Below are positions 20,064-35,654 of a stretch of DNA of 36,352 nucleotides, piece after piece. Origin of the DNA: Candidatus Methanomethylophilaceae archaeon (GTDB lineage Archaea > Thermoplasmatota > Thermoplasmata > Methanomassiliicoccales > Methanomethylophilaceae); the NCBI GenBank assembly GCA_017524805.1, contig JAFXUX010000020.1, positions 1 through 36,352 of the forward strand, in the 5' to 3' direction. Each line of letters starts with the position of its first letter. The first letter of the stretch is position 1. Below the pieces are notes generated by a model. That model was not told where the DNA came from. It searched no databases and was given only the letters and a program-made list of their open reading frames with translations. The translations under genes were made by a program, and so were the position numbers.

Positions 20064-20903
20064 ATGAAGGATTGGACGACGGCCGCGGTGGGAGCCCTGG
20101 TGGGTATCGTATCCGCCCTCCCCGGAGCCAGCGGATCCACGATGCTGGTCATATTCGGCCTCTATGAAAGGGTGATCCTGGCCGTATCCAGCATCAGGCG
20201 CCTCATCGCTGACATCCGTTTCATGGCCGTCGTCGCCGTGGGAATCATGGTCGGGCTGTTCGCATGCTCCGTTTTCCTGGACTACGTGATCCTCAAGTGG
20301 GAGATGCCGGCGATGTTCTTCTTCGGCATCCTCATCCTATGCCAGATCCCCGACGTCAAAGCTATGGAAGGCAGGTCCGAACCTGCGGGGAAAACATGGT
20401 GGATCGCGTTCGCCATAGGATTCGCCGCCATACTTGCGCTCCTGCCGATAAGAGGCACGGGAAGCACTGAGCCTTCGATGATGGCCATGCTTCTGATCGG
20501 AGCCATATACGCTGTCGCCACGGTGTTGCCGGGTGTGAGCGGATCCACCGTGCTGGTCGCCTTGGGGCTTTACGACGCATTCCTTGCGGCCGTCTCCGGG
20601 CTTAACCTCGTCTATCTGGCACCGATGATCGCAGGAGCCTTGGTGACAGCCATTCTTCTCACAAAAGCGATAAGAATATGCTTGGACAGGCACAGGACGA
20701 CATCTTTCGGGGCCATCATGGGCCTCACGGTGGGTTCCATGGCCACCGTCCTCATAAGCGCCTGCGCAATGGTATCTGACGCCGACGATATTTTGCTGGC
20801 CATCGCCGGGATCGCGATAGGATTCGCCGCAGGATATGCCCTCAGACGTCTCGCCATCAGATACAGAAAAGAAGGGATCGACGGCAGCGGGGATAGGGAT
20901 TGA
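20064..20903 (+). CDS. DUF368 family polyprenyl-phosphate transporter (PopT-like)
   Basis: The 279-residue membrane protein has about eight to nine hydrophobic segments and two copies of a re-entrant motif in an inverted-repeat build: ALPGASGSTMLVIFGLYE (residues 18-35) and VLPGVSGSTVLVALGLYD (about 155-172). This duplicated PGxSGST signature defines DUF368. Bacterial members return undecaprenyl phosphate across the membrane. In an archaeon the natural substrate would be dolichyl phosphate or another long polyprenyl phosphate used for glycan export; this is inference from the family. The start is 28 bases after a TATA box. Confidence 0.88.
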   Translation: MKDWTTAAVGALVGIVSALPGASGSTMLVIFGLYERVILAVSSIRRLIADIRFMAVVAVGIMVGLFACSVFLDYVILKWEMPAMFFFGILILCQIPDVKAMEGRSEPAGKTWWIAFAIGFAAILALLPIRGTGSTEPSMMAMLLIGAIYAVATVLPGVSGSTVLVALGLYDAFLAAVSGLNLVYLAPMIAGALVTAILLTKAIRICLDRHRTTSFGAIMGLTVGSMATVLISACAMVSDADDILLAIAGIAIGFAAGYALRRLAIRYRKEGIDGSGDRD

Positions 20904-23038: not shown

Positions 23039-23049
23039 ATATTAATGGT
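23039..23049 (-). promoter_or_regulatory. TATA box of arcS
   Basis: The minus strand reads CCATTAATATC, centred 28 bases before the arcS ATG at 23016. The box is nearly symmetrical and could also serve the plus strand towards pyrB. Confidence 0.5.
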
Positions 23050-23070
23050 TGCGGAAACCCGGAAGAATAC

Positions 23071-23080
23071 AGTTAATAAC
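23071..23080 (+). promoter_or_regulatory. TATA box of the pyrB operon
   Basis: AGTTAATAAC is centred 28 bases before the ATG at 23103 but only ten bases before the in-frame ATG at 23085. It favours 23103 as the start, unless the box at 23039-23049 is also used in this direction. Confidence 0.45.
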
Positions 23081-23102
23081 GGCCATGGCGATAGGGAAGC
23101 CC

Positions 23103-24032
23103 ATGGACCTCTACGACAAAGACGTTGTGTCAATCAGGGACTTCAGCAAGGACCAGATCGAAGGCATTCTGGACCTTTCCCAGAAGATGGTTCCGTATGC
23201 GCTCGGCGACAAGACAAGACGCATCCTAGACGGCAAGATCCTCGGCAACCTTTTCTTCGAGCCTTCCACCCGCACCAAACTCTCGTTCGAGAGTGCAGCG
23301 TACAGGCTTGGATGCGACGTCATAGACGTGTCCGAGATGTCCATGACCTCGATATCCAAGGGAGAAACCCTTGCGGACACCATAAAAATGGTGGATGCCT
23401 ATTGCGACCTCATCGTCCTGAGGCATCCGTACGAGGGAGCCGCGAGATTGGCGGCCAAATTCTCGATAAACCCAGTCATCAACGCAGGGGACGGGGCCGG
23501 ATCCCACCCGACCCAGACTCTTCTGGACCTTTTCACGATGAGGGAGGCGAAAGGCACCCTCGACGGCCTCAACATAGTTCTGGTGGGCGACCTGAAATAC
23601 GGCAGGACCGTCCATTCCCTGGCCGACGCTCTCACCATGTTCGGCGCCAAAATCACCTTGGTAGCGCCGGAAAGCCTCCAGATGCCCGACGACATAGTCG
23701 CCCATCTTGAAGAGAAAGGCTGCCATCCCCGCAAGACCGCCGTGCTGGAAGACGTCATAGACCAGGCAGACGTCCTTTATGTGACGAGGATACAGAGGGA
23801 AAGGTTCCCCGACCCGTCGGAATACAGCAAAGTTGCCGGCACCTACAGGATCGACAACGCGATCCTCAGGGAAGCAAAGAACGACATGATCGTCATGCAC
23901 CCGCTTCCCAGGGTCGGAGAGATAGCGCCGGAAGTGGATGAAACACAGCATGCAAGATATTTCAAGCAGGCATTCAACGGGGTCCCCGTGAGAATGGCCC
24001 TTCTCAGCGCCATTTTGGGAGGTGAGATGTGA
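23103..24032 (+). CDS. pyrB: Aspartate carbamoyltransferase, catalytic subunit
   Basis: PyrB joins carbamoyl phosphate and aspartate in the first committed step of pyrimidine synthesis. From the ATG at 23103 the protein has 309 residues, the usual length; starting at 23085 would add six. The phosphate site is EPSTRTKLSFESA; then come LRHPYEG, HPTQTLLDLFT, the loop residues VGDLKYGRTVHSLADAL and the aspartate site TRIQRERF and MHPLPR. The HPLPR motif and absence of HCLP distinguish it from argF. The stop overlaps the pyrI start, so the two subunits are made together and should form the regulated holoenzyme. Confidence 0.97.
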   Translation: MDLYDKDVVSIRDFSKDQIEGILDLSQKMVPYALGDKTRRILDGKILGNLFFEPSTRTKLSFESAAYRLGCDVIDVSEMSMTSISKGETLADTIKMVDAYCDLIVLRHPYEGAARLAAKFSINPVINAGDGAGSHPTQTLLDLFTMREAKGTLDGLNIVLVGDLKYGRTVHSLADALTMFGAKITLVAPESLQMPDDIVAHLEEKGCHPRKTAVLEDVIDQADVLYVTRIQRERFPDPSEYSKVAGTYRIDNAILREAKNDMIVMHPLPRVGEIAPEVDETQHARYFKQAFNGVPVRMALLSAILGGEM

Positions 24033-24511
24033 TGCAGACGAATCCTACTGTGAAAGAGATCAAACTTGCGCCCATCAGGAACGGCACCGTCATAGACCAC
24101 ATCGCCTGCGGCCAAGCGCTCAACGTGATGAAAATACTCGGCGTGAGCGAGAACAACATCGATTCATGCATCAGCATAGGGATCCATGTCCCCTCCACGA
24201 AAGAGACCAAGTGGAAGGACCTTATCAAGATAGAGGACAGAGAGCTGGATTCGGCTACCGTAGATAAGATCGCTCTCATCGCCCCTGATGCGACCATCTC
24301 CATCATCAGAGACTATTACGTCGCGGAAAAGTTCACCGTCCATCTGGACGACCACGTCAGCGGCCTGGCCAAATGCAGCAACCCCAATTGCATCACCAAC
24401 AAGGGAGAGCCCGTATCGCCGGAGTTCACGGTCGTCAGCAGGCACCCCATCCAGCTAAGATGCTGCTACTGCGACAGGATATTGACGAACATATCCGACA
24501 ACCTGCTGTGA
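24032..24511 (+). CDS. pyrI: Aspartate carbamoyltransferase, regulatory subunit
   Basis: PyrI binds nucleotide effectors and links catalytic trimers of PyrB. The 159-residue protein has the N-terminal effector domain (IRNGTVIDHIACGQALNVMKIL, then VPSTKETKWKDLIKIE) and a C-terminal zinc domain with four cysteines, CSNPNC and CCYCD. The start ATG overlaps the pyrB stop by one base (TGATG), with GGAGGTGA a few bases upstream inside pyrB. A GTG one codon before is also in frame. Feedback control by CTP or a similar nucleotide is expected from the family. Confidence 0.97.
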   Translation: MQTNPTVKEIKLAPIRNGTVIDHIACGQALNVMKILGVSENNIDSCISIGIHVPSTKETKWKDLIKIEDRELDSATVDKIALIAPDATISIIRDYYVAEKFTVHLDDHVSGLAKCSNPNCITNKGEPVSPEFTVVSRHPIQLRCCYCDRILTNISDNLL

Positions 24512-24515
24512 TCAG

Positions 24516-25046
24516 ATGAGAATCATAGTCGTCGCAGGGATGCCCGGCTCCGGGAAAGAGGAGCTGCTGAAGGTAGCGCGCTCGATGGGATTCGATTTCG
24601 TCAGGATGGGCGACGTCGTCAGAGAATCCTACGCGGAATCCCGCGCGGAGTCCGAGGGGCTTTCCGTCGGAGAATTCGCCGCGAGAGAGAGGGAAAGGTA
24701 TGGCAAGGACGTTTGGGCCGAGAGGTCGGTCAAACGCATGTCAGGCGATCTGTTCTTCGTCGACGGATGCAGGAGCATGGACGAGGTCCGCTCGTTCCGC
24801 CGCGTCTCGGATGACGTGCTCATAGTCGCCATACATGCCCCCAGAAGCGAGCGCTTCAGAAGGCTGGTGAACAGAAACAGGGAAGATGCTCCCCGCGATG
24901 AAAAGGAATTCGACGCACGCGATAACTTAGAGATCGGATGGGGCATCGCCGAGGTGATAGCTCTGTCCGAGCATATGCTGGTCAACGATTCCGACCTCGA
25001 AACCTTCCATAAAAACGCCCGCACGCTTTTGGAGAGCCTCAGATGA
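24516..25046 (+). CDS. P-loop kinase of the archaeal UPF0200 / dephospho-CoA-kinase-like group
   Basis: The 176-residue protein begins with a Walker A loop, VVAGMPGSGKEELL (residues 5-18), then RMGDVVRESY, a pattern shared with small nucleotide kinases. DLFFVDGCRSMDEV fits the strand that carries the Walker B acid, and RFRRLVNRNREDAPRDEKEF looks like an arginine-rich lid. The archaeal UPF0200 group has this build and is related to CoaE and adenylate kinases, but its substrate is not settled. It starts four bases after pyrI and is probably in the same operon, which would be consistent with a nucleotide substrate. Confidence 0.78.
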   Translation: MRIIVVAGMPGSGKEELLKVARSMGFDFVRMGDVVRESYAESRAESEGLSVGEFAARERERYGKDVWAERSVKRMSGDLFFVDGCRSMDEVRSFRRVSDDVLIVAIHAPRSERFRRLVNRNREDAPRDEKEFDARDNLEIGWGIAEVIALSEHMLVNDSDLETFHKNARTLLESLR

Positions 25047-25069
25047 GATTCACGACGTCCCGCCTCTGC

Positions 25070-25078
25070 GGAGGTGAT
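25070..25078 (+). promoter_or_regulatory. Full-length Shine-Dalgarno sequence that sets the start of the small TBP-like gene
   Basis: GGAGGTGAT matches the whole anti-SD end of 16S rRNA and stands six bases before the ATG at 25085. It is the best ribosome binding site in the window and favours this ATG over the one at 25043 that overlaps the previous gene. Confidence 0.7.
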
Positions 25079-25084
25079 TCATTC

Positions 25085-25306
25085 ATGGCCATTTCCGCCG
25101 AACCCATGGACATAGACATGGCGAAGGCCGCCGAATCCATCTCCGCCCGGGGATGCCCGATATCCAAAGTTGGCGAGCTGGAGCTGACATTCACCTGGAA
25201 CGGGATGGAGGTCACCCTCTATCCCTCCGGGAAAATCATGTTTTTCCCTCTGAAAGACCGCGCTCTGTGCATCAAATACGCCACCGAGCTGCTAGAATCG
25301 CTCTGA
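25085..25306 (+). CDS. Small protein with a TBP-like half-fold pattern, unknown
   Basis: I do not recognise a named family. The 73-residue protein has two short helices (DIDMAKAAESISARG) and then LELTFTWNGMEVTLYPSG, KIMFFPLKDRALCIKYATELL. The strand-turn-strand with PSGKI followed by a helix resembles one half of the TATA-binding-protein fold, where a SGK turn joins two strands. It may bind nucleic acid or a protein partner. An in-frame ATG at 25043 overlaps the kinase stop (ATGA) and would add 14 residues, but the strong ribosome binding site supports 25085. It closes the pyrB operon. Confidence 0.68.
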   Translation: MAISAEPMDIDMAKAAESISARGCPISKVGELELTFTWNGMEVTLYPSGKIMFFPLKDRALCIKYATELLESL

Positions 25307-25347: not shown

Positions 25348-26079
25348 ATGGATGCCATATCGTTAGCGACATTGGCGGTGGCTCTCTCAACCCTGCTGTC
25401 CCTCGCAGCGCTCAAAACCGGCTGCCTGACCAAAGATGGGGCGGCAGCCTCGTTACTGGTCGGATCGTTCACAGGAATATTCGGTTCTCTGGAAGCGTTC
25501 ATCCTGATGACGATATTCACCGTCACCGGATTCGCAGCGACATGGAACGGGCTTTCCGATAAGAAGAAACGTGGCCTCCAAGAGGGAAAGAAAGGCGAGC
25601 GGACATGGAAGAACGTAGCCGGGGTAGGCATCCCGCCGTGCGCGATAGTCCTGATCAACGCCATCTGGCCGATGGAGCCGACGCTTTTCTTCGTGGCGTT
25701 CATATCCACCATGACTGTCGCCGGGGCCGACACGATAGCATCGGAGATAGGCATCCGCGACAGGGAAGTCTTCCTGATCACCAATTTCAAGAAGGTATCG
25801 CCGGGAACCAACGGGGGCATATCGCTGCTGGGAACTGCCGTATCCACAGCCGCATCTCTGGCCATAGCTGTTCTGGGATGGCTCATAATGGCCCACACTC
25901 TCGACTGGGTACTCATCATCCCATTCGTCGCAGGGGTATTCGGGAACTTCATGGACAGCGTTCTGGGTGCCACGCTGGAAGATCGCGGTATAATCTCTAA
26001 ATACGCGAACAACTGCGTCACGGCGCTCATGGGAGCCGCCTTCGGAGCCGGCGCATGCATAGCCGCGGGATATGCCTGA
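25348..26079 (+). CDS. DUF92 integral membrane protein (VTE6-related)
   Basis: The 243-residue protein has about six hydrophobic segments. Motifs of the DUF92 / TIGR00297 family are KTGCLTKDGAAASLLVGS near residue 30, GVGIPPCAIVL, then MTVAGADTIASEIG near 125-138, KVSPGTNGGISLLG near 152-165, and GNFMDSVLGATLED near 205. The plant relative VTE6 phosphorylates phytyl phosphate to phytyl diphosphate. In an archaeon a matching substrate would be geranylgeranyl or other prenyl phosphates. This role is inferred from the family and from a VTE5-like gene 1.3 kb away. It is convergent with the thymidylate-kinase-like gene. Confidence 0.85.
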   Translation: MDAISLATLAVALSTLLSLAALKTGCLTKDGAAASLLVGSFTGIFGSLEAFILMTIFTVTGFAATWNGLSDKKKRGLQEGKKGERTWKNVAGVGIPPCAIVLINAIWPMEPTLFFVAFISTMTVAGADTIASEIGIRDREVFLITNFKKVSPGTNGGISLLGTAVSTAASLAIAVLGWLIMAHTLDWVLIIPFVAGVFGNFMDSVLGATLEDRGIISKYANNCVTALMGAAFGAGACIAAGYA

Positions 26080-26110
26080 AGAATATCCTCAGCTTGCACC
26101 TATAAGCGAT

Positions 26111-26692
26111 TCATCCCTTCGAAAGCGTAGAATCGGCGATTTCAGAGATCGATGACCTTACCGTCTCCAAACTCAGGGTATTGTCGATCACATGCCATCC
26201 GTCCGAGAGGGACAGCATTTTCTCGCGGATGTGTGTGAGATCCTCCAAATTCTCGAAGGCTTCCAGATCCTCCCCGCGCCCCATGATGCGCTTCATCGAG
26301 GTCTCCGCGTCCACGTCCACCAGGATGAACTCGTCCGGCATCGGAAACAGCTTCGTTATGGGGCCGTACGCTTTCTTGTAAATCCCGTCCGGAAGATAGG
26401 CGACCGACATCAGATACCTGACGAAGATGAAATCGTCATACCTTTTGGAGTGGATTCTCATGCGGAATATGGAGTTTACCGCGTCAAGGATGAAAAACAC
26501 CGTGGAAAGGATCTTGGCCAGTTTCCCCTCTTTATGTAGATAGCCGTATTCCAGCTTCCCGGCCAGGCAGGATGTGTCGGGATGCGACACCATGAAAACC
26601 CTGCGGCCTTCGGACTCCAATTTATCTCTGAGGAAATCGGCACAGGTCGTCTTCCCGCATCCGTCCATCCCATCCACGACATACCAGGTCAT
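26111..26692 (-). CDS. Thymidylate-kinase-like P-loop kinase
   Basis: The 193-residue protein starts with VVDGMDGCGKTTCADFLRD, a Walker A loop as in dTMP kinases. HPDTSCLAGKL follows where dTMP kinases have a base-binding loop, and MGRGEDLEAFENLEDLTHIR matches the region after the lid. The typical dTMP-kinase DR-Y motif is not clear; instead DDFIFVRYLMSVAYL occupies that position with Arg and Tyr present. The start lies one base after the stop of the VTE5-like prenol kinase gene, so the two are translated from one message. It may make dTDP, or it may act on a different monophosphate. Confidence 0.78.
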   Translation of the reverse strand: MTWYVVDGMDGCGKTTCADFLRDKLESEGRRVFMVSHPDTSCLAGKLEYGYLHKEGKLAKILSTVFFILDAVNSIFRMRIHSKRYDDFIFVRYLMSVAYLPDGIYKKAYGPITKLFPMPDEFILVDVDAETSMKRIMGRGEDLEAFENLEDLTHIREKMLSLSDGWHVIDNTLSLETVRSSISEIADSTLSKG

Positions 26693-26693
26693 G

Positions 26694-27392
26694 TCAAAGC
26701 CCCAGGAGAGCCATCGCGAGCGCCACGGTAAGCGGGACGGCCAGATTGTCGTATGCCCCGTTGCATACGGCCTCTATGGCCGCGGCCAACGCACCTGCGA
26801 CCGCGCATGCCACATATGGCGGCACAATGCCGGAATAGACTCCGGCCGGATACCACCCTGACGAAGCCAGGAAACCGTAGAAAGCTATGAGAATCAAGGA
26901 TATGACGGCCGTGAAAGCGAACACGCCGAAAGTTCCCTCCGCGGACTTGCCGTTGATGATCTTGTGCTTGCCGAACTTTTTGCCGATGACGCTGCCGAAG
27001 CCGTCGCCAAAAGTCATCGCTATGACGCCTATGGAAGCGGCTGTCCAGTGGTCGGAGCAGAGCAATACCAATACGGTGATCGTGATGGCATAGAAGAACA
27101 GCCCGGTCTTGTGCCCGTTGTTGGATATCTCCCCAAGCTTGGACTCGGATATCTTGTTGCCCTTGATCATCGCGAAGAATAGTATTATTGCGAAGGGAAT
27201 GGTGAAAAAGATCAGCATAACCCAGTTCTCGGTGAACATCCACCAGACGAAAACGAAAGTTCCGACTCCGATGTGGACCACTTTGCGGGTGTCTATCCTG
27301 GAATTCTTCTTCTCCAGATAAGCCGAAACAGCCAACGACACGCCGATGATCAGATACACCAGAATGAGCGCCACGTAATCCTGAGTCTGCAT
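26694..27392 (-). CDS. CTP-dependent prenol kinase, VTE5/SEC59 family
   Basis: The 232-residue protein has about seven membrane spans. Family marks are the N-terminal DTRKVVHIGVG (residues 34-44), the nucleotide-binding segment FGDGFGSVIGKKFGKHKI followed by GKSAEGTFG in the middle, and EAVCNGAYDNLAVPLTVAL near the C-terminus. Members phosphorylate phytol, farnesol or dolichol with CTP. In an archaeon the substrate is likely a geranylgeraniol-type alcohol or dolichol. GGAGG stands almost against the ATG, so initiation there may be weak; a TTTATC box near 27434-27441 could be the promoter. Confidence 0.85.
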   Translation of the reverse strand: MQTQDYVALILVYLIIGVSLAVSAYLEKKNSRIDTRKVVHIGVGTFVFVWWMFTENWVMLIFFTIPFAIILFFAMIKGNKISESKLGEISNNGHKTGLFFYAITITVLVLLCSDHWTAASIGVIAMTFGDGFGSVIGKKFGKHKIINGKSAEGTFGVFAFTAVISLILIAFYGFLASSGWYPAGVYSGIVPPYVACAVAGALAAAIEAVCNGAYDNLAVPLTVALAMALLGL

Positions 27393-27431
27393 CCTCCAAC
27401 CTGCCAGTACGATGTGAGTAAAGACTACTCA

Positions 27432-27647
27432 ATGATAAACGTTGATGTGGAAACAATTGACTCCGCCTGGGCCGAACCCCATCGGAAGGTCGTAGGAATC
27501 CCCTCAGAAGATGGGAAACTTCGGACTGCTTTCGGAAAAACAGTCGAGGATATGGGATTTATAGATTTCAGAGAGATTCGGACACAGAGAATCAGACAAT
27601 ATCATCCATCTGATCCCGCAAAACCGGCGTTTGAAACTATTATATAA
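27432..27647 (+). CDS. Possible short protein, doubtful
   Basis: A 71-residue frame begins with MINVDVETIDSAWAEP and has a plausible soluble composition with EDGKLRTAFGKTVEDMGF. No ribosome binding site or clear TATA box precedes it, and its stop lies inside the TATA box of the next gene. It also overlaps the promoter region of the VTE5-like gene. I list it only because it is the one open frame in this 277-base gap that looks protein-like. Confidence 0.2.
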   Translation: MINVDVETIDSAWAEPHRKVVGIPSEDGKLRTAFGKTVEDMGFIDFREIRTQRIRQYHPSDPAKPAFETII

Positions 27648-27650
27648 ATG
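27640..27650 (+). promoter_or_regulatory. TATA box of the UbiA-type gene
   Basis: TTATATAAATG is a near-consensus box centred 25 bases before the ATG at 27670. The message should be leaderless. Confidence 0.6.
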
Positions 27651-27669
27651 AAACAGGTCATGCCGTGCC

Positions 27670-28488
27670 ATGAACAAGTATCTGCAGTTGTTCAGGATCG
27701 GGAACGCCATAATGGGGATCATCGGCGTAACCGTGGCATCCTTCATGGCTTCGGGGACCGGGATCGCCGACCATTGGATCAACCTCCTGATATCCGCTCT
27801 GATAGTGTTCATGTTCGTGTGCGGGGGAAACGCCCTCAACGACAGCATAGACGCCGAGATCGACAAGACCGCCCATCCTGAGCGCCCAGTCCCTTCCGGC
27901 CGCATGACCGCCAAAGAAGCGAGGAACGCCGGCATAATCATGCTCGCCGGTTCGGCCGCCGCTTCCCTCCTCACCATGGACCCGGTCTGCATCCTCATCG
28001 TAACGGTTGCCGTGGCGCTGATGGTAGCTTACGAGCTGTTCCTGAAGCAAAGGGGATTCGTAGGGAATCTGACCATAGCGGCGCTCACCGGGATGACATT
28101 CCTGATGGGCGGGGCGGCCGTATCCAACGCCGAAGGCAACGTCATAATCGCGGTCATGGCCGCTCTCGTTTCCGTCGGAAGAGAGATCGCCAAAGACATC
28201 GAAGACATGGAAGGGGATGAGGGGAGAGTCACTCTGCCCATGAAAATAGGGAAGAAGGGTGCGGCAGCAGTTGCATGCGTGTTCTTCATCGCAGGCCCGA
28301 TGCTGAGCATCGTACCCATGATCCAGCACACGTACGGACCGATGTACTATCTGGTGGTAGTAGCTGACGCCCTGTTCATATTCTGCGCCTATTCCGTGTT
28401 CTCAGACCCGCACAAAGCCCAGAAGACAGCGAAAATCGCCATGTTCGCCGCTCTCATTGCGTTCATACTCGGAGTCGCATTCAGATGA
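27670..28488 (+). CDS. Digeranylgeranylglyceryl phosphate synthase (UbiA family)
   Basis: This enzyme adds the second geranylgeranyl chain to geranylgeranylglyceryl phosphate in archaeal ether-lipid synthesis, in the membrane. The 272-residue protein has about eight to nine spans. The first aspartate-rich motif is NALNDSIDAEIDKTAHPERP (residues 56-75), the second is REIAKDIEDMEGDEG (about 177-191); both hold magnesium and the diphosphate. N-terminal LFRIGNAIMG is typical of the archaeal group. Quinone-type UbiA enzymes share the fold, but methanogens of this type lack quinones, and the motif spacing fits DGGGP synthase. It is divergent from the VTE5-like gene. Confidence 0.92.
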   Translation: MNKYLQLFRIGNAIMGIIGVTVASFMASGTGIADHWINLLISALIVFMFVCGGNALNDSIDAEIDKTAHPERPVPSGRMTAKEARNAGIIMLAGSAAASLLTMDPVCILIVTVAVALMVAYELFLKQRGFVGNLTIAALTGMTFLMGGAAVSNAEGNVIIAVMAALVSVGREIAKDIEDMEGDEGRVTLPMKIGKKGAAAVACVFFIAGPMLSIVPMIQHTYGPMYYLVVVADALFIFCAYSVFSDPHKAQKTAKIAMFAALIAFILGVAFR

Positions 28489-28786
28489 TGTCTGAATGGA
28501 TTATTATCCGAATCGAATTGGATCCTTCGAACTGGCAGAACAATTTGATACGGCACTTGAATCTGAAAGAAAATTGATCGCCCCGACAGATCAGATTCTA
28601 CAGAGAAATCGAGAGACCTCGAGCGCATGCCCGAAACTCATCCCTCACCGCGAATATGCCGCATATCGTAAGGATGAATTGTGGGTCTAAAGTTGATTGA
28701 TAAACTTTAGGAATCTGAGTACAAACAGTTATGACTTCAGTTTCCATTTTTACTTTGTAGACTGCATAGTGTACAGGAGATTGTTT
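28489..28786 (+). other. Upstream region of the giant surface-protein gene
   Basis: This is about 300 bases without a protein gene that I can support. It holds the inverted repeat at 28687-28710 and, at 28775-28780, GGAGAT, which is the ribosome binding site of the next gene. No clear TATA box was found at the usual distance; the AT-rich stretch 28735-28760 is a weak candidate. Confidence 0.5.
28687..28710. repeat. Perfect inverted repeat before the giant surface-protein gene
   Basis: CTAAAGTT and AACTTTAG form an eight-base perfect dyad around the spacer GATTGATA. It lies about 80 bases before the start codon. It could be an operator for a dimeric regulator or the stem of a leader hairpin. 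Confidence 0.6.
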
Positions 28787-28787
28787 G

Positions 28788-31700
28788 ATGACAAAACAAA
28801 TGTGCGCATCACCGGCAGGACACGCGGAGGCGTTCCGCCCCATTCACATCCTTGCCGTGTTCATTGCCATTCTGTCACTGTTCGCGATATTCACAGTGGC
28901 ATCCAATGACTCGGACGCCTTATCCTTTTGGGATGACGACGAGATAATACACTATTACCAACCAGATGGAGTGGATTGGGTTGCGGCGGACGGCATAGCC
29001 GACAAAATAGCCGATATAACCGTACCCGCCCAGATTGAACATGATGGAGTCACATACCAGGTTAAGGCAGTAGATTTCAGTGGGGAGAAGTATCTGATAT
29101 CCGCGAAATTATCATACGGGATAGAGATCATAGGTCTCTCCAACGGATTTTACAGCTGCAATAATCTCAGATATGTCGAGATCCCCGATTCTGTGACGAC
29201 GATCGGCTTCGATGCCTTCGACAATTGCAGATCGCTGTATCACCTTTATCTTCCCGACTCCGTGACCAGCATCGCCGATTGGGCGTTCAGCAACTCGGCG
29301 CTCGTTTCCATAAGACTTCCGGAAAGCGACGGTTTCACTACAATGCCGAATTATCTCTTCTCCGGCTGCAATCAATTGACATCCGTTGTCATCCCCAGCA
29401 ACGTGACGACCATAGCAGACCATTGTTTTTCGGATTGCGACAGCCTGGAGCAGATAGTGATTCCCGAGAACGTCAAATCGATAGGGGAAGGAGCTTTCTC
29501 CGGATGCGACGCATTGACATTCATAGATCTCCGCTGCGACGAGACGACGAATTTCGGATATTATTCCCTGTGGGGAGCCTCAGGCATAGATGGCGCGCTG
29601 AAGGTCCGGACATCGATTCCCATAGAGACTTTCCTCGAAGCTGATGCGTTCAGAGACGGAACGCAGGTGGGACCGAACCTTGAATTCGGATACCATTTCC
29701 ACGGCAATACTAACGGATGGGAGCTCGCCAACCACGAGTGGGATCTGGTGGACGGATATCTGAAGGTCTGGGCCGTGTCCCCGGACAATACCGTCCTCGG
29801 CGAGGATGGAGGGGAACTCTTCTACGTCGTGGACCGCGAGAATTATAACGCATTCAGCGTCAAGAAGCTGATACGCCAGGTGGAGTTCGTAAACGACCCG
29901 TCCAATGGCAAATACCTCCTGACATCCGTGGGATACGACGCATTCTACGGAGTGCTGGCTACCTCGTTCATCCTCCCGGAGGGTATGGAGAGCATCATGA
30001 GCTATTCCATCGATACCCCCGGTTACGTGAAGATTCCCGATTCAATAGAGACCTGGGAATGCAACATGCGCCCGTTGAACACCGTCATAATCTCTGACAG
30101 CAACGTCCCAGAAGGGTTGTGCGTGGGCAACGAAGCCAACTCCGTGATCATCACAGTCGGCTCCGACTTCGTTGAGGACGGGATCATCCAAACTTATAAC
30201 GACCACATCCACAACGGCGACGGCATCTTGTATCTGGTGGGAAAAACCCCCATGATTTCGAAGATAAACAGCGCCGGCCTCGAAATCGATGTGCGGTACA
30301 TTTCCGATACGGATGGAAAAGTATACCATTTCGACAGCGACAAGTGGAAGTGGGTGCAGGATACCGATCTGCGCACGGTTCAATTCGAATTCAACGACGG
30401 CTCCGGACTCTACACCAGAAAGGTTGTCAAGGACACCATAGGCGATGCAGGGATCACATACCTTCCCGACAAGAGCTTCGCCGGATGGTTCCTGCCCGGA
30501 GGCGTGTTCGTATCCCCTGATGCCAGCGTATCCAGCGTCATGGGATCCAGCTATCTCAAGACCCTCTATGGCCGCTGGAACGGCGCCATGGTCGAGCTAG
30601 GCAGCGGCGTGACACTCACCGTGGACGGCACTTCCTACACAGGATACGCCACGGTACCTCTCGGCAAGACCGCGGCCGTATCGTTCGAAGACGGGCTCGA
30701 ACTCTACTACGCCCCCGGGTTCTCCGTCAGCGGCAACAAACTGACCCCCATAGCCGGATGCCAGACCTATGCGGTCATGGCCCAGCCCGCGGCCAACACC
30801 TTGGTTACTTTGAACCTCAACGGCGGAACCGGCTCATTCACCAGCTTCAACGTGGCGATAGGCGGATCCGTGCCCGCTTCCTTCAAGGCCCCGGAGAAGA
30901 CCGGATATGATTTCGGCGGCTACAACAACAGCAACGGAACGACAGTCATCACCGCCAAGGGCGCGTTCGTCCGCAACGTATCGGGATACACCGACAGAAA
31001 CGGATTGTGGACGAACGAGAACTCCGCCGTCACCTTGGAAGCCAAGTGGACTGCGCACACCACCAAGGTAATCCTGCACAACATGGGCGTCGTCCCGGAC
31101 GCGGAGTACACCGCGACCTACGGCATGGATTTCCCGAACATCCAAGCACCTTCCAGCGAGATGGCGAGGTTCGACGGTTACTACGATGCCGTAGATGCCC
31201 AGGGCAACCCCTCTGGAATGCTCATCAACAAGGGCGGATGGACAAACATCGACAGCTCCGTCAATCCCCTTTTCGACGGATACACCTGGAAGGGAGACAT
31301 CCCGGCCTACGACCTCTACGCCAAATGGGTTCCGAAGTATACCGTCGTGAACGACGATGACGGCCGCTCCTATGAGCTCTCAGGCAACGATGCGCTTGAC
31401 CTCGGGCAGCCTTCCAAGGCAGGATACACATTATCCGGATGGCTCCTCACAGGAGATGTGAACTACAGCACAGCCGTTTACGGAACTGAAGGCAGCGTCA
31501 CCAAGAAGATAGTCGAAGGGACTGCGTTCAAGGCATCCAAGGGTGACACCTGGGTCGCTTCCCTTTCATCCGCCGTCGGAGGAACCGTACATGCGGTGCC
31601 GCAGTGGACCCCGATCAGATACAAGGTCACCTTCGACCTCGACGGAGGAACCGGCAGCTATTCCGACAAGACATTCACGTACGACAGCAAATACGCCATC

Positions 31701-34700
31701 TCCGAACCCTCCAAGGAAGGGTACGTCTTCCTCGGATGGACCGTCACCTGCGATGCCCTGTCATGGGCGGCCTGCTCCGACTCCAAGAATGGAACATACC
31801 GCTGGATGTCATCGACCTCGCCCGAGAAGAACAGCACCTCGGGAAGCCCCCTTTACGTGATGAACCTGTCTTCCGACGCTTCGAAGACCGCCGCCTTGGT
31901 CGCCCACTGGGCCCCCGGAACTTACTCGCTGAGCTTCGACCCCAATGCCATCGACGCGACCGGATCCATGAGCATCCAGACGATCTACATCGACACCTCG
32001 GAGTACATCCAATGGGCAGACTTCTCGAGGACCGGCTACTCGTTCATGGGATGGGCTACCTCCGCCGGAGGAGCCGTCGTGTACGAGAACCACCAGCTGG
32101 TCAGCAACATCGCTGAGAAAGATCAGATTCTGACCCTGTACGCCGTGTGGAAGATCAACCAATACACCATCCACTTCGCCAACACCGGATCGAGCGTCAT
32201 CCCTGACATCACCCAGGATTACGGCACCGCCATAACCGCGCCCGCTGACCCCGTCCTGCCGAGATACACGTTCGCCGGATGGGTTCCCCAGGTGCCTGCC
32301 GTCATGCCTGCCGAAGACGTGACCGTCACCGCGAAATGGGAGGTCGGCACATACACCGTCACATTCAGCGCCAACGGCGGCTCGGGAGCCATGAGCCCGC
32401 AGTCCGTGGCTTATGAGCTGACCGTGCCCCTCAAATCCAACGAATTCACCAAGACGGGATACAGATTCGCATCCTGGAACACCGCCAAGGACGGATCGGG
32501 AACATCCTATCAGGACAAGGAATCCGTCTACAACCTCGACGACGTCATCCTGTACGCCCAGTGGGCTCCCATAACCTACACGGTGAAGTTCCACGACAAC
32601 ACAGGAAACACGCCCGAGAGCACTGCGACCCAGAGCATGACGTACGGCAAGAGCGCGACCCTGAAGGCCAACACATTCACCAACGCGCCCTACAAGTTCC
32701 TGTCCTGGAACACCAAGGCCGACGGAACCGGAACCAGCTATGCCGACAAGGCTGCCGTCAAGAACCTCACGAAAACCGACAGGGATACGGTCGATCTGTA
32801 CGCCCAGTGGGACTCTCCGACCACCTCCATCATCATGGACAAGGGCGACGGCGATTCGAGCGGAGCAGCCGCCGCCAAGTATGGGGCCAAAGCGGCATCC
32901 ATAACCAAGCCGGCGGCCTCGGATTATCTCCGCCTGGTCGGATACTATTCCGGCGACATCCTCGTCATCAACCCGGACGGATCCTTCCCGACCAGCGCGA
33001 TAGGATTCGTCACCGATGGCGTATGGAGATATGCCGAAGAGACACTGACCCTCACGGCCAAGTGGAAGGCCCCCTACGAAGTGGGCGAAACGTTCGTTTA
33101 CGAGAACATCACCTACATAATCACCTCGATCAACCCCAACAAGGCTGCCGCGGTCAATGTGGACAAGCCCGCCGCAGTCATCGAGATCGCGTCGGAAGCC
33201 GACCACATGAACGGAAGGTTCAGCATCACATCCCTGGCAAAGAACTCCTTCTCCGGATGCGCCTCGGCCGAGGAAGTCACCATACCCTCGAGCATAGCGT
33301 CCATCGGATCCGGATCCTTCTCTGGAATAACCTTCTACGACATCGACGGCACCACCGTCCTCCAGAAGACGGCCGCGGCTTTGAAGGGCCACACCTACTC
33401 CGGAGGAAACGGAAAGCTGGTCCGCGAAGGCATCGCTCCGGGCGAGACCTTCGACTACGGCGACCTGAAGTATAAGGTCACCTCGGTCTCCCCCAATTAT
33501 GAAGCATCCGTCATCGGATACAACGGCAAGATGACGAACCTCATCGTCCCGGCGACCGCATCCTGCAAGGGAGTGAACATGGCTGTGACCTCGATCGAGA
33601 GCCAGGCGTTCTACAGCTGCTCCACCATGGTCACCGCCTCCATCGGCAATGTCGCATCCATCGGCAGCAAGGCCTTCGCCAACTGCGTTGCTCTGAAGAC
33701 AGTGGATTCAGGAGACGATCTGAAGACGATAGGCAGCTACGCGTTCTACAACTGCCCCGCATTGGAATACGTGAAGGTCCCGTCATCCGTGGCCAGCATC
33801 GGCACCGCGGCGTTCTCCGGACTTACGTTCTACGACGCGGACGGAGAGACGAAGCTCAGCACCAACGCGCTCCCCGGCTACATCTACAAGGGCGCAGGGG
33901 ACAAGACATTGGTCCGCCAGGTTCAGCTGTATGTCGGATACGAATTCAAGACCCACGGGTTCCTGTACACCGTCACTTCCCTGAACCCCGCGAAGGTTGC
34001 CCTGTCCGGCTATGTGGGCAAGCCCGTCGACGTTGTCGTCCCCAACGAGATCAGCTACGGAGGATCGAAGATCATCGTCGATTCCATAGGGGCCAAGGCG
34101 TTCTACGGATGCACGACCCTCAAGTCCATCGACACCGGAGACGCGACGACCATTGGCTCGAAGGCCTTCGCCAACTGCTCCAATCTGGAGACGGTCAAGA
34201 TGAGCGCCGCATCCAAGATCGATTCCTATGCGTTCTTCGGATGCCCTGCCCTCAAGAGCATCCAGTTCTCCAGTTCCCTGAGGACCATAGGCGCCAGCGC
34301 ATTCCAGGGCACCACATTCCTGAAGATGGACGGAACCGCCGTCAGCGCCGCCGCCGACCTGAAGGGATACCTGTTCGAGGGCTCCAACGGCGTCCTCAAG
34401 AAGAATGCGTTCAAGGAAGGGGACAGATTCACCTACACCGGCCTGAAATACAAGGTCATAAACATTGACCCGCTGAAGGTGTCCCTGGTAGGATACGAAG
34501 GCGTGATCACCCACCTCACAGTTCCTGGCAACGTCGAATTCAAGGGCGAGAGCCTGTTCGTCGCCACCATCGGAACGAAGGCGTTCTACGGCAACCTTGA
34601 TCTGAAGTATACCGACCTCGGATACGTCAACTACGTCGGCCTGAAGGCCTTCGCAAACTGCACGAACCTCACCACCTTGATTGTCCCGAAGAGCGTGACG

Positions 34701-35654
34701 ACCGTCGCCACCTACGCATTCTGCAACACGGGCATCACCTCTCTGGACATCCCCGGAGACAATGTGGTCCTCGAGGACAGCGTGTTCAGCGCCTGCAAGG
34801 ATATGACCAGCATAACATTCAGCGGGCACGGCGCAGTCATAGGCAAGAACGCATTCTACAAGAACAACGGAGTCAGCAGCGTAGATCTGTCCACCGTGGA
34901 ATCCGTCGGACCGAAGGCGTTCTCCTATTGCTACGGGCTCACGTCGCTGACCATAACCAGCAACATACGCGTGCTGTACCAGTACACGTTCTTCCAGTGC
35001 ACGAACCTGAAGGACCTGACGATCGAATACGGCGTCCAGAAGATAGGCGCCAGCGCGTTCAGCGGATGCGTCTCCCTGGAGAACGTTTCCATGCCCAAGT
35101 CTTTGATCTACATGGGCGACAACGTATTCCACGGCCTGAAGTTCCTCGACCTCAACGGGGAGCCCATGGACGCCACCGTCAAGAACCTCCGCGGACACTT
35201 CTTCACCGGAACCGGCAAGATCCTCCGCGAGACCGCCGATCTGGTGATCGACGAGGAATTCACCTCCGGAGGGCTGACCTACAAGGTGGCTTCGACCGAC
35301 CCGCGCGAAGTGGCTCTCATCGGATTCGACGAGGCCGTCACCTCCATCCCCAGCTCCGTGATATACAAGGGCTGGGAGATCCCGGTCGCCTACATCGGCG
35401 AGAAGGCGCTCTTCAGCTGCGAGACGCTGACATCGGCCGATCTGACGAACGCGAAGTCCATCGGCGCCAAGGCATTTGCCTACTGCCACTCCCTCGCGGA
35501 TGTGTCGTTCGGCAAGGGCCTCCAGACCGTGGGAGGATACGCGTTCTACGACCTGTCCTTCTACGACGGAGCCAAGAAGATTTCGGCGTCCGCCGCCAAC
35601 CTGAAGGGACATACCTTCAGCGGATCGGACTCGAACCTATACCTTGTAAAGTGA
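28788..35654 (+). CDS. Giant BspA/InlB-type surface protein
   Basis: The 2288-residue protein starts at ATG 28788 behind GGAGAT (spacing seven). Residues 20-40 are a hydrophobic signal segment (ILAVFIAILSLFAIFTVAS). Residues about 100-270 are BspA-type leucine-rich repeats (IPDSVTTIGFDAFDNC and similar). Residues about 545-1430 hold a row of InlB-type repeats, each with a YTVTF-like strand, a GY-F-W centre and a closing AQW or AKW. From about 1430 to the end come five tandem modules, each opening with a G-x-x-F-x-x-x-x-L-x-Y pattern (GETFVYENITY, GETFDYGDLKY, GYEFKTHGFLY, GDRFTYTGLKY, DEEFTSGGLTY) and containing BspA repeats with KAFANC. The last module ends at the C-terminus with no membrane span or sorting signal. 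A role in adhesion to host or microbes is inferred. Confidence 0.93.
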   Translation: MTKQMCASPAGHAEAFRPIHILAVFIAILSLFAIFTVASNDSDALSFWDDDEIIHYYQPDGVDWVAADGIADKIADITVPAQIEHDGVTYQVKAVDFSGEKYLISAKLSYGIEIIGLSNGFYSCNNLRYVEIPDSVTTIGFDAFDNCRSLYHLYLPDSVTSIADWAFSNSALVSIRLPESDGFTTMPNYLFSGCNQLTSVVIPSNVTTIADHCFSDCDSLEQIVIPENVKSIGEGAFSGCDALTFIDLRCDETTNFGYYSLWGASGIDGALKVRTSIPIETFLEADAFRDGTQVGPNLEFGYHFHGNTNGWELANHEWDLVDGYLKVWAVSPDNTVLGEDGGELFYVVDRENYNAFSVKKLIRQVEFVNDPSNGKYLLTSVGYDAFYGVLATSFILPEGMESIMSYSIDTPGYVKIPDSIETWECNMRPLNTVIISDSNVPEGLCVGNEANSVIITVGSDFVEDGIIQTYNDHIHNGDGILYLVGKTPMISKINSAGLEIDVRYISDTDGKVYHFDSDKWKWVQDTDLRTVQFEFNDGSGLYTRKVVKDTIGDAGITYLPDKSFAGWFLPGGVFVSPDASVSSVMGSSYLKTLYGRWNGAMVELGSGVTLTVDGTSYTGYATVPLGKTAAVSFEDGLELYYAPGFSVSGNKLTPIAGCQTYAVMAQPAANTLVTLNLNGGTGSFTSFNVAIGGSVPASFKAPEKTGYDFGGYNNSNGTTVITAKGAFVRNVSGYTDRNGLWTNENSAVTLEAKWTAHTTKVILHNMGVVPDAEYTATYGMDFPNIQAPSSEMARFDGYYDAVDAQGNPSGMLINKGGWTNIDSSVNPLFDGYTWKGDIPAYDLYAKWVPKYTVVNDDDGRSYELSGNDALDLGQPSKAGYTLSGWLLTGDVNYSTAVYGTEGSVTKKIVEGTAFKASKGDTWVASLSSAVGGTVHAVPQWTPIRYKVTFDLDGGTGSYSDKTFTYDSKYAISEPSKEGYVFLGWTVTCDALSWAACSDSKNGTYRWMSSTSPEKNSTSGSPLYVMNLSSDASKTAALVAHWAPGTYSLSFDPNAIDATGSMSIQTIYIDTSEYIQWADFSRTGYSFMGWATSAGGAVVYENHQLVSNIAEKDQILTLYAVWKINQYTIHFANTGSSVIPDITQDYGTAITAPADPVLPRYTFAGWVPQVPAVMPAEDVTVTAKWEVGTYTVTFSANGGSGAMSPQSVAYELTVPLKSNEFTKTGYRFASWNTAKDGSGTSYQDKESVYNLDDVILYAQWAPITYTVKFHDNTGNTPESTATQSMTYGKSATLKANTFTNAPYKFLSWNTKADGTGTSYADKAAVKNLTKTDRDTVDLYAQWDSPTTSIIMDKGDGDSSGAAAAKYGAKAASITKPAASDYLRLVGYYSGDILVINPDGSFPTSAIGFVTDGVWRYAEETLTLTAKWKAPYEVGETFVYENITYIITSINPNKAAAVNVDKPAAVIEIASEADHMNGRFSITSLAKNSFSGCASAEEVTIPSSIASIGSGSFSGITFYDIDGTTVLQKTAAALKGHTYSGGNGKLVREGIAPGETFDYGDLKYKVTSVSPNYEASVIGYNGKMTNLIVPATASCKGVNMAVTSIESQAFYSCSTMVTASIGNVASIGSKAFANCVALKTVDSGDDLKTIGSYAFYNCPALEYVKVPSSVASIGTAAFSGLTFYDADGETKLSTNALPGYIYKGAGDKTLVRQVQLYVGYEFKTHGFLYTVTSLNPAKVALSGYVGKPVDVVVPNEISYGGSKIIVDSIGAKAFYGCTTLKSIDTGDATTIGSKAFANCSNLETVKMSAASKIDSYAFFGCPALKSIQFSSSLRTIGASAFQGTTFLKMDGTAVSAAADLKGYLFEGSNGVLKKNAFKEGDRFTYTGLKYKVINIDPLKVSLVGYEGVITHLTVPGNVEFKGESLFVATIGTKAFYGNLDLKYTDLGYVNYVGLKAFANCTNLTTLIVPKSVTTVATYAFCNTGITSLDIPGDNVVLEDSVFSACKDMTSITFSGHGAVIGKNAFYKNNGVSSVDLSTVESVGPKAFSYCYGLTSLTITSNIRVLYQYTFFQCTNLKDLTIEYGVQKIGASAFSGCVSLENVSMPKSLIYMGDNVFHGLKFLDLNGEPMDATVKNLRGHFFTGTGKILRETADLVIDEEFTSGGLTYKVASTDPREVALIGFDEAVTSIPSSVIYKGWEIPVAYIGEKALFSCETLTSADLTNAKSIGAKAFAYCHSLADVSFGKGLQTVGGYAFYDLSFYDGAKKISASAANLKGHTFSGSDSNLYLVK
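33079..35651 (+). repeat. Five tandem BspA modules in the surface-protein gene
   Basis: Module starts lie near 33079, 33439, 33932, 34416 and 35249. Modules two and three are each about 485-495 bases, the fourth is longer (about 830), and the first and last are shorter. Each closes with a segment like LKGYxFxG before the next G-x-x-F opening. They are similar at protein level and diverged at DNA level. Confidence 0.7.

Follow-up and report, generated by a model that had tools for sequence, protein, structure and literature searches.

A conserved VTE5-like, thymidylate-kinase-like and UbiA gene set in Methanomassiliicoccales as a candidate prenol-activation cassette

RESULTS

Gene content of the locus

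Four open reading frames lie within 3.1 kb of the window (the whole stretch of 36,352 nucleotides that was analysed), and their initial annotation as DUF92, thymidylate-kinase-like (TMKL), VTE5-like and UbiA proteins was confirmed, coordinates included, by the reading frames together with profile and motif evidence (Table 1). Only 1 nt separates the VTE5 stop codon from the TMKL start codon, which makes the earlier suggestion that both proteins are translated from a shared message reasonable. The divergent spacer between the VTE5-like and UbiA genes is longer in the window than the ~90-200 bp found in most relatives, and the TATA-like sequence TATTATATAA lies in it immediately 5' of the UbiA start.

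Table 1. Features of the window discussed in the text
Feature	Positions	Strand	Evidence and remarks
Polyprenyl-phosphate translocase-like gene	20064-20903		Profile matches
pyrB, pyrI, AAA_17 kinase-like protein, 87-aa ORF	23049-25306	+	Pfam; block that DUF92 mostly accompanies
DUF92/TIGR00297 (VTE6 superfamily) membrane protein, 243 aa	25348-26079	+	PF01940; outside the conserved cassette
TMK-like protein (TMKL), 193 aa, putative soluble prenyl-phosphate kinase	26111-26692	-	Thymidylate_kin, fold, signature
VTE5-like membrane CTP:prenol kinase, predicted, 232 aa	26694-27392	-	Motifs; first gene of two-gene message
VTE5/UbiA divergent intergenic region, 277 bp	27393-27669	.	Sequence reading
UbiA prenyltransferase, probable DGGGP synthase	27670-28488	+	UbiA Pfam; divergent from VTE5

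Family assignment of the prenol kinase and the prenyltransferase

At 1e-3, neither Pfam nor NCBIfam models matched the VTE5-like protein of the window, and CTP_transf_1 was matched by one of 25 relatives (2e-5). Its sequence contains the RKxxH clamp and the GDG, GKSxEG and DN motifs, and the corresponding residues (R36-K37-H40, G129-D130-G131, K149-S-x-E152-G153 and D215-N216) show little or no variation among 38 core relatives and are for the most part retained in five divergent ones. The predicted model is a multi-helix structure (pLDDT 91.7), for which Foldseek returned CdsA (4q2g) as the best PDB match with a probability of 0.94 but a weak E value of 0.09. The putative VTE5/SEC59-type assignment rests on the motifs, the CTP_transf_1 match of that one relative and the predicted fold. 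Two genomes carry stops in both the VTE5 and TMKL genes, and a search of annotated plasmid records for VTE5 homologues found none.

The UbiA protein scored 143.6 bits against the Pfam model (cut-off 34.2), and the motifs NDxxDxxxD and DxxxD can be read in it as NDSIDAEID and KDIEDMEGD. Its nearest solved relative is the DGGGP synthase of M. jannaschii (6m31, 131.7 bits, the next at 44.7), and it reaches 212 bits with NCBIfam PRK12882, the GGGP geranylgeranyltransferase equivalog, below the cut-off of 296. Within the order, 94 of 96 genomes have an orthologue. Outside it, NCBIfam PRK12884 "prenyltransferase" matches the UbiA of the operon better than the DGGGPS models do, and 10-18 UbiA members are present in many of these genomes. 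In a UbiA tree aimed at DGGGPS orthology, long branches meet, and the deep branches neither join this UbiA to the known DGGGPS nor separate it from them. Judged from its sequence, the UbiA protein beside VTE5 is probably DGGGP synthase.

TMKL is a distinct subfamily of the thymidylate kinase fold

TMKL matches Thymidylate_kin with 98.5 bits (Pfam cut-off 27) and the dTMP kinase equivalog TIGR00041 with 63.2 bits, below the cut-off of 83.25, and Foldseek assigns it to the fold of several TMKs with a probability of 1.00. The protein retains the P-loop (DGMDGCGKTT in the window), the phosphate-binding R92 and the LID arginines. Its subfamily signature reads DGxDG-GK, HP, DVxxS, VRY..AYLP and EMFE, while true TMKs compared from the same genomes carry EP, ADR and DRY..S..AYQ. 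The thymidylate-binding motifs DR(Y/H)..S..AYQ and ADR are thus not those of TMKL, whose subfamily has VRY, AYLP and DA/DV, and the missing DR-Y motif of the initial annotation proved to be a subfamily-wide VRY. The consistently replaced positions include residues that read thymine, namely the ADR arginine and the AYQ glutamine. True TMKs are encoded elsewhere in the sampled genomes, including that of the window, and these separate genes together with the signature residues rule out TMKL as an ordinary TMK.

Conservation of the gene neighbourhood

The survey of the order covered 96 genomes, of which 64 were VTE5-positive and 30 had no VTE5 match; it was complemented by 20 further genomes of the phylum with a strong VTE5 match. 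TMKL directly follows VTE5 on the same strand, with a gap of at most 81 bp, in 61 of the 64 positive genomes, and the two genes are adjacent in all 20 genomes outside the order. In 18 of these 20, a UbiA gene lies directly upstream of the pair on the same strand, mostly at a distance of 3-34 bp, and this co-directional arrangement occurs in three other families of the phylum. Within the window's own family, UbiA is divergent from VTE5 in 22 of 37 VTE5-positive genomes; since the link is kept in these relatives and in the three other families, the neighbourhood test does not speak against the proposed association of a prenol kinase with the prenyltransferase. Comparison of 20 family loci over ~9 kb revealed that only TMKL, VTE5 and UbiA persist (18-20 of 20 loci). 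Over all these comparisons, the proximity of the three genes is far above chance. The polyprenyl-phosphate translocase-like gene is kept in only 3 of these 20 loci and was rejected as a functional neighbour. The conserved unit is VTE5-like plus TMKL with a UbiA/DGGGP-synthase-type enzyme adjoining, without DUF92.

Exceptions to the pairing were also recorded. Four genomes have TMKL without a detected VTE5, and some VTE5-like relatives, in one family, occur with neither TMKL nor DUF92, where a one-step product is possible. A VTE5-TMKL fusion was sought in long open frames, and a VTE5-DUF92 fusion in one genome (G116) turned up instead; this genome has no TMKL match, which is consistent with alternative second kinases. 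The long frames of two other genomes consist of a SEC59-like domain after an N-terminal stretch resembling a spurious reading frame.

DISCUSSION

Proposed pathway

The observed gene set, its conservation, the operon structure, the subfamily signatures and the folds underlie a reading in which we infer the substrates, the order of steps, the phosphate donors and a salvage or recycling purpose. The VTE5-like membrane enzyme would use CTP to phosphorylate a free prenol, for which geranylgeraniol or a similar C20 alcohol is the likeliest candidate, and the apparently soluble TMKL, probably made from the same message, would add a second phosphate from an NTP, yielding a prenyl diphosphate that the neighbouring UbiA, probably DGGGP synthase, would consume for ether lipids. 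As judged from sequence, we give an even chance to the window carrying such a conserved prenol-activation cassette. The near-constant pairing of VTE5 with TMKL, often together with an ether-lipid enzyme, makes TMKL a promising candidate for the archaeal C20 prenyl-phosphate kinase still to be found. More specifically, and with confidence somewhat short of even, VRY-type TMKLs could be soluble P-loop enzymes that phosphorylate prenyl monophosphates, evolved as an alternative to VTE6/DUF92 and sharing an operon with a prenol kinase and a UbiA that uses GGPP; to our knowledge, they would be the first genes proposed for the archaeal GGP kinase.

Alternative explanations

The salvage set originally proposed for this locus paired the VTE5-like protein with DUF92 as successive kinases, leaving TMKL incidental, and part of it stands, namely the link between a prenol kinase and a GGPP-type prenyltransferase. 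In that proposal the alcohol could be salvaged from the gut. DUF92 as the working second step here lacks support, and we consider this version unlikely. The window's protein is a clear family member (PF01940, 170 bits against a cut-off of 27.5; TIGR00297, 151 bits, under the cut-off of 206), plant VTE5 and VTE6 work in succession (PMC10849223, PMC9782597), and the G116 fusion has a counterpart in the Sec59-DUF92 fusion reported in Methanosarcina (PMC5898192). In one genome, moreover, DUF92 adjoins the cassette even with the pyr block inverted and on the opposite side. The expected neighbourhood is nevertheless not conserved: just 7 of the 64 positive genomes have DUF92 less than 10 kb from VTE5, and 16 of the 20 outside genomes with the VTE5-TMKL pair lack DUF92. 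Within the order, 92 of the 96 genomes have DUF92, even though VTE5 has no match in 30 of the 96. These data rule out DUF92 as the conserved partner of VTE5, whose constant partner is TMKL. The AAA_17 and 87-aa genes share 6 of 20 family loci with DUF92 and adjoin it in five, and its position beside the cassette here is a local juxtaposition of what is mainly a member of the pyrBI/AAA block. A superfamily relation between DUF92 and SEC59-like proteins is reported in PMC5898192; hhalign of DUF92 against the VTE5-like protein, with two alignments too shallow to be informative, gave a probability near 0. Because DUF92 occurs fused to a VTE5-like domain, it may perform the second phosphorylation in other archaea, and its presence in the window's genome means that this step could be redundant there. 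The earlier mention of TMKL as a possible prenyl-phosphate supplier fared better, the sequence evidence favouring it over DUF92 as the candidate second step.

Two further readings retain the gene pair and change its substrate or purpose. The VTE5-like protein could be a dolichol or polyprenol kinase that supplies or recycles the long-chain dolichyl phosphate used in glycosylation, with TMKL in support, for example by providing a diphosphate carrier. The family is related to SEC59, archaeal members have been assigned as dolichol kinases (arCOG01881, PMC5898192), uppS is the only reported conserved context of DUF92, a translocase-like gene lies in the window, and there are VTE5-like proteins with no second kinase at all. 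We find this reading doubtful, since the UbiA beside the pair has DGGGPS as its nearest solved relative, the translocase gene is rarely kept, and neither glycosylation genes nor uppS were seen among the annotated neighbour clusters. Alternatively, TMKL might be a nucleotide kinase, such as a kinase for pyrimidine NMPs that contributes to CTP regeneration for the VTE5-like enzyme, as its fold, intact P-loop and LID arginines would allow and as the preference of VTE5-type kinases for CTP would suit (PMC9782597). The replaced thymine-reading residues and the true TMKs of the sampled genomes make this unlikely. In addition, the by-product of a VTE5-type kinase would be CDP, and it is an NDP kinase, not an NMP kinase, that returns CDP to CTP.

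Significance and relation to known systems

According to recent reviews, salvage-pathway enzymes are still missing in most organisms. As a prenyl-phosphate kinase candidate, TMKL is concrete, small and apparently soluble; its partner in the operon is conserved and a likely consumer enzyme is at hand, so that the question is decidable with two purified proteins. If the proposal is correct, it would extend the thymidylate kinase fold to a new substrate class and point to a way in which archaeal membrane prenols may be recycled.

A membrane GGOH kinase and a cytosolic GGP kinase were described in Sulfolobus acidocaldarius by Ohnuma in 1996, as related in PMC9782597, and the 1996 archaeal activities are also cited in PMC9385802; the literature searched assigned no gene to either. 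The layout that we predict from genes is alike, with a membrane first kinase and a cytosolic second one. It differs in that six Sulfolobales genomes (reached via Sac7d loci) had no VRY-type TMKL match, and the TMK matches read in them carry canonical motifs and are ordinary TMKs only. As far as these six genomes show, TMKL is ruled out as the 1996 Sulfolobus GGP kinase, and the second Sulfolobus enzyme may be another protein; S. acidocaldarius had no DUF92 match. For arCOG02245/Sec59-DUF92 fusion proteins, independent comparative genomics predicted an isoprenoid kinase role of DUF92 and its link to a SEC59-like domain, and the portion of PMC5898192 examined does not describe the VTE5-TMKL-UbiA cassette.

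With thymidylate kinases, TMKL shares the fold, P-loop, LID arginines and general architecture, but DRY is changed to VRY, ADR to DV, AYQ to AYLP and EP to HP, and it is not the genome's TMK. The Plasmodium FOH/GGOH kinase PfPolK, likewise a membrane protein, has its R29, K30, H33 clamp spaced like R36, K37, H40; it is not encoded in an operon, and its diphosphate-making partner was not identified (PMC10849223). The plant VTE5/VTE6 system, in which VTE6 is known from the literature to have prenyl-phosphate kinase activity, resembles the archaeal set in the two successive phosphorylations of a C20 alcohol predicted here, in a first enzyme of the VTE5/SEC59 family and in a UbiA-type consumer. 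The archaeal set is distinguished by a constant second partner that is a P-loop TMK-like protein rather than a DUF92/VTE6 membrane protein, and by its association with a probable ether-lipid enzyme.

Conservation of the VTE5-TMKL-UbiA cassette

The initial annotation grouped four genes as a possible prenyl-alcohol salvage set in which a putative VTE5/SEC59-like CTP:prenol kinase (VTE5) would act before DUF92, beside DGGGP synthase. All four were found where it had placed them, with 1 base separating the VTE5 stop from the start of the thymidylate-kinase-like gene (TMKL). We searched 96 genomes of the order Methanomassiliicoccales with each of the four proteins and computed inter-gene distances, revealing that TMKL directly adjoins VTE5 on the same strand in 61 of the 64 genomes that gave a full VTE5-like match (gap at most 81 bp, usually 4-10 bp); four genomes carry TMKL without a detected VTE5. 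The expected co-occurrence across the order was borne out in part: UbiA, the probable DGGGP synthase (DGGGPS), lies divergently within 2 kb of VTE5 in 22 genomes, all from the window's family (22 of the 37 VTE5-positive genomes there), but DUF92 falls within 10 kb of VTE5 in only 7 of the 64.

Features of the window
Feature	Position	Strand	Remarks
VCA0040-like/PopT-like polyprenyl-phosphate translocase gene	20064-20903		PF04018, 116 bits; only 3/20 relatives have it close to the cassette
AAA_17 kinase-like gene and 87-aa ORF	24516-25306		No Pfam match for the ORF; co-occur with DUF92 in family loci
DUF92	25348-26079	+	Clearly above Pfam cut-off
TMKL	26111-26692	-	Clearly above Pfam cut-off
VTE5-like protein	26694-27392	-	Complete motif set of the family; no Pfam model cut-off passed
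UbiA	27670-28488	+	Clearly above Pfam cut-off
2289-aa protein	28785-35654		BspA-type leucine-rich repeats and Listeria-Bacteroides repeats; likely a surface protein

When 20 family loci were compared over up to ~9 kb on each side, TMKL (20/20), VTE5 (20/20) and UbiA (18/20) were the only persisting genes. DUF92 occurs in 6 of these loci, each of which also has two genes of the pyrBI block, AAA_17 and the 87-aa ORF; in 5 of the 6, DUF92 adjoins that block. Because DUF92 goes with the pyrBI block and TMKL, VTE5 and UbiA persist alone, the initial grouping reflects two conserved blocks that abut in the window's genome and a few close relatives.

The cassette extends beyond the order. Among 117 genomes across the phylum, with a strong VTE5 match defined as 150 bits or more, a strong TMKL match lies immediately downstream of VTE5 in all 20 out-of-order genomes with such a match, and DUF92 is absent from 16 of these 20. 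The order UbiA-VTE5-TMKL on one strand is found at 18 of the 20 loci, with gaps mostly of 3-34 bp. The closest solved structure to this UbiA is M. jannaschii DGGGP synthase (115.5 bits); in NCBIfam, PRK12884 'prenyltransferase' ranks ahead of the DGGGPS models, many of these genomes hold 10-18 UbiA members, and our tree left the deep branching relative to known DGGGPS open. At most of the 18 loci the cassette UbiA matches the window's UbiA better than any other gene of its genome does, or is the sole match there, the exceptions being G170, G185, G193 and G156. VTE5 and TMKL matches are both broken or carry stops in G146 and G130 (L101, L152), and in G020 (L151) a VTE5 fragment adjoins an intact TMKL; judged by these lesions, the three loci are decaying cassettes. 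In family f20, UbiA-VTE5-TMKL is immediately preceded, on the same strand, by a gene for a zinc alcohol dehydrogenase of the threonine/polyol-dehydrogenase type (L086, L093-L095, L097, L098, L100).

Features of the two putative kinases

The VTE5-like protein carries R36-K37-xx-H40, G129-D130-G131, K149-S-x-E-G153 and D215-N216. An alignment shows this set kept in 38 close relatives and largely retained by five divergent proteins. Its predicted model (pLDDT 91.7) has CdsA as best solved match, at a weak E-value.

The TMKL model (pLDDT 93.9) adopts a thymidylate-kinase fold with a probability of 1.00, and the protein falls below the NCBIfam dTMP kinase cut-off. An alignment of VTE5-paired proteins and a few paralogues shows that the P-loop is kept, as is the DRY-motif arginine, whereas the nucleotide-reading motifs of thymidylate kinases (TMKs) are consistently replaced: ADR to DV, DRY to VRY, AYQ to AYLP and EP to HP. 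Canonical motifs are present in TMKs elsewhere in the sampled genomes, including the window's own (contig C7). Outside the order (L082-L101) the P-loop ends in GKDT rather than GK(S/T)T, as in some polyphosphate kinases 2. TMKL, a predicted phosphate kinase, seems no longer to recognise thymidylate, the residues taken to read thymine being assigned from TMK structures in general. A second VRY-type paralogue in the window's own genome (contig C38, L141:2149-2709) neighbours deoxyhypusine synthase and an isocitrate/isopropylmalate-dehydrogenase-like gene, types also found near the VTE5-TMKL pair in other families of the order; these common surroundings suggest the ancestral location.

A candidate pathway and its alternatives

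Since one operon holds a putative prenol kinase, an apparently thymidylate-blind kinase and a UbiA that consumes prenyl diphosphate, the simplest reading is successive phosphorylation, in which the VTE5-like protein would convert prenol to prenyl phosphate, TMKL would convert this to prenyl diphosphate, and UbiA would use the product in transfer. The alcohol might be salvaged from the gut, or it might equally come from turnover of the cell's own lipids, which would give the same picture.

The second step may have alternative enzymes. In G116, where a TMKL search gave no match, a VTE5/SEC59-like domain is fused to a DUF92 domain (L160:2815-4365), paralleling Mbar_A3310 of Methanosarcina, for which an earlier study reports a Sec59-DUF92 fusion (PMC5898192); together these fusions suggest that the second kinase may be DUF92 in some genomes and TMKL in others. 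The VTE5-like protein could instead serve dolichol phosphorylation, which we regard as unlikely yet worth keeping in view: in family f8 (L166:3802-4626, L167:3019-3708) VTE5-like proteins occur with neither DUF92 nor TMKL matched, so this branch may make the monophosphate alone, and its product may be formed in one step, as dolichyl phosphate would be. For the cassette itself, successive phosphorylation to the diphosphate is the reading we carry forward.

Comparison with known systems

Two later sources (PMC9782597, PMC9385802) describe measurements by Ohnuma et al. (1996) in Sulfolobus acidocaldarius of a geranylgeraniol kinase in the membrane and a geranylgeranyl-phosphate kinase in the cytosol. 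DUF92, a membrane protein with no match in the S. acidocaldarius control genome, is not an obvious source of that cytosolic activity. TMKL was not found in the six other Sulfolobales genomes searched either, so the Sulfolobus second kinase may be another protein. In the literature searched, which took in few subscription journals and no bioRxiv preprints, neither a TMK-like prenyl-phosphate kinase nor a VTE5-TMKL-UbiA operon was found described. The R-K-xx-H spacing of the VTE5-like protein is identical to that of the charged clamp (R29, K30, H33) of the Plasmodium prenol kinase (PMC10849223), and an isoprenoid kinase role for DUF92 was already predicted by Makarova and colleagues (PMC5898192), who also noted that DUF92 is linked with uppS and with a SEC59-like domain.
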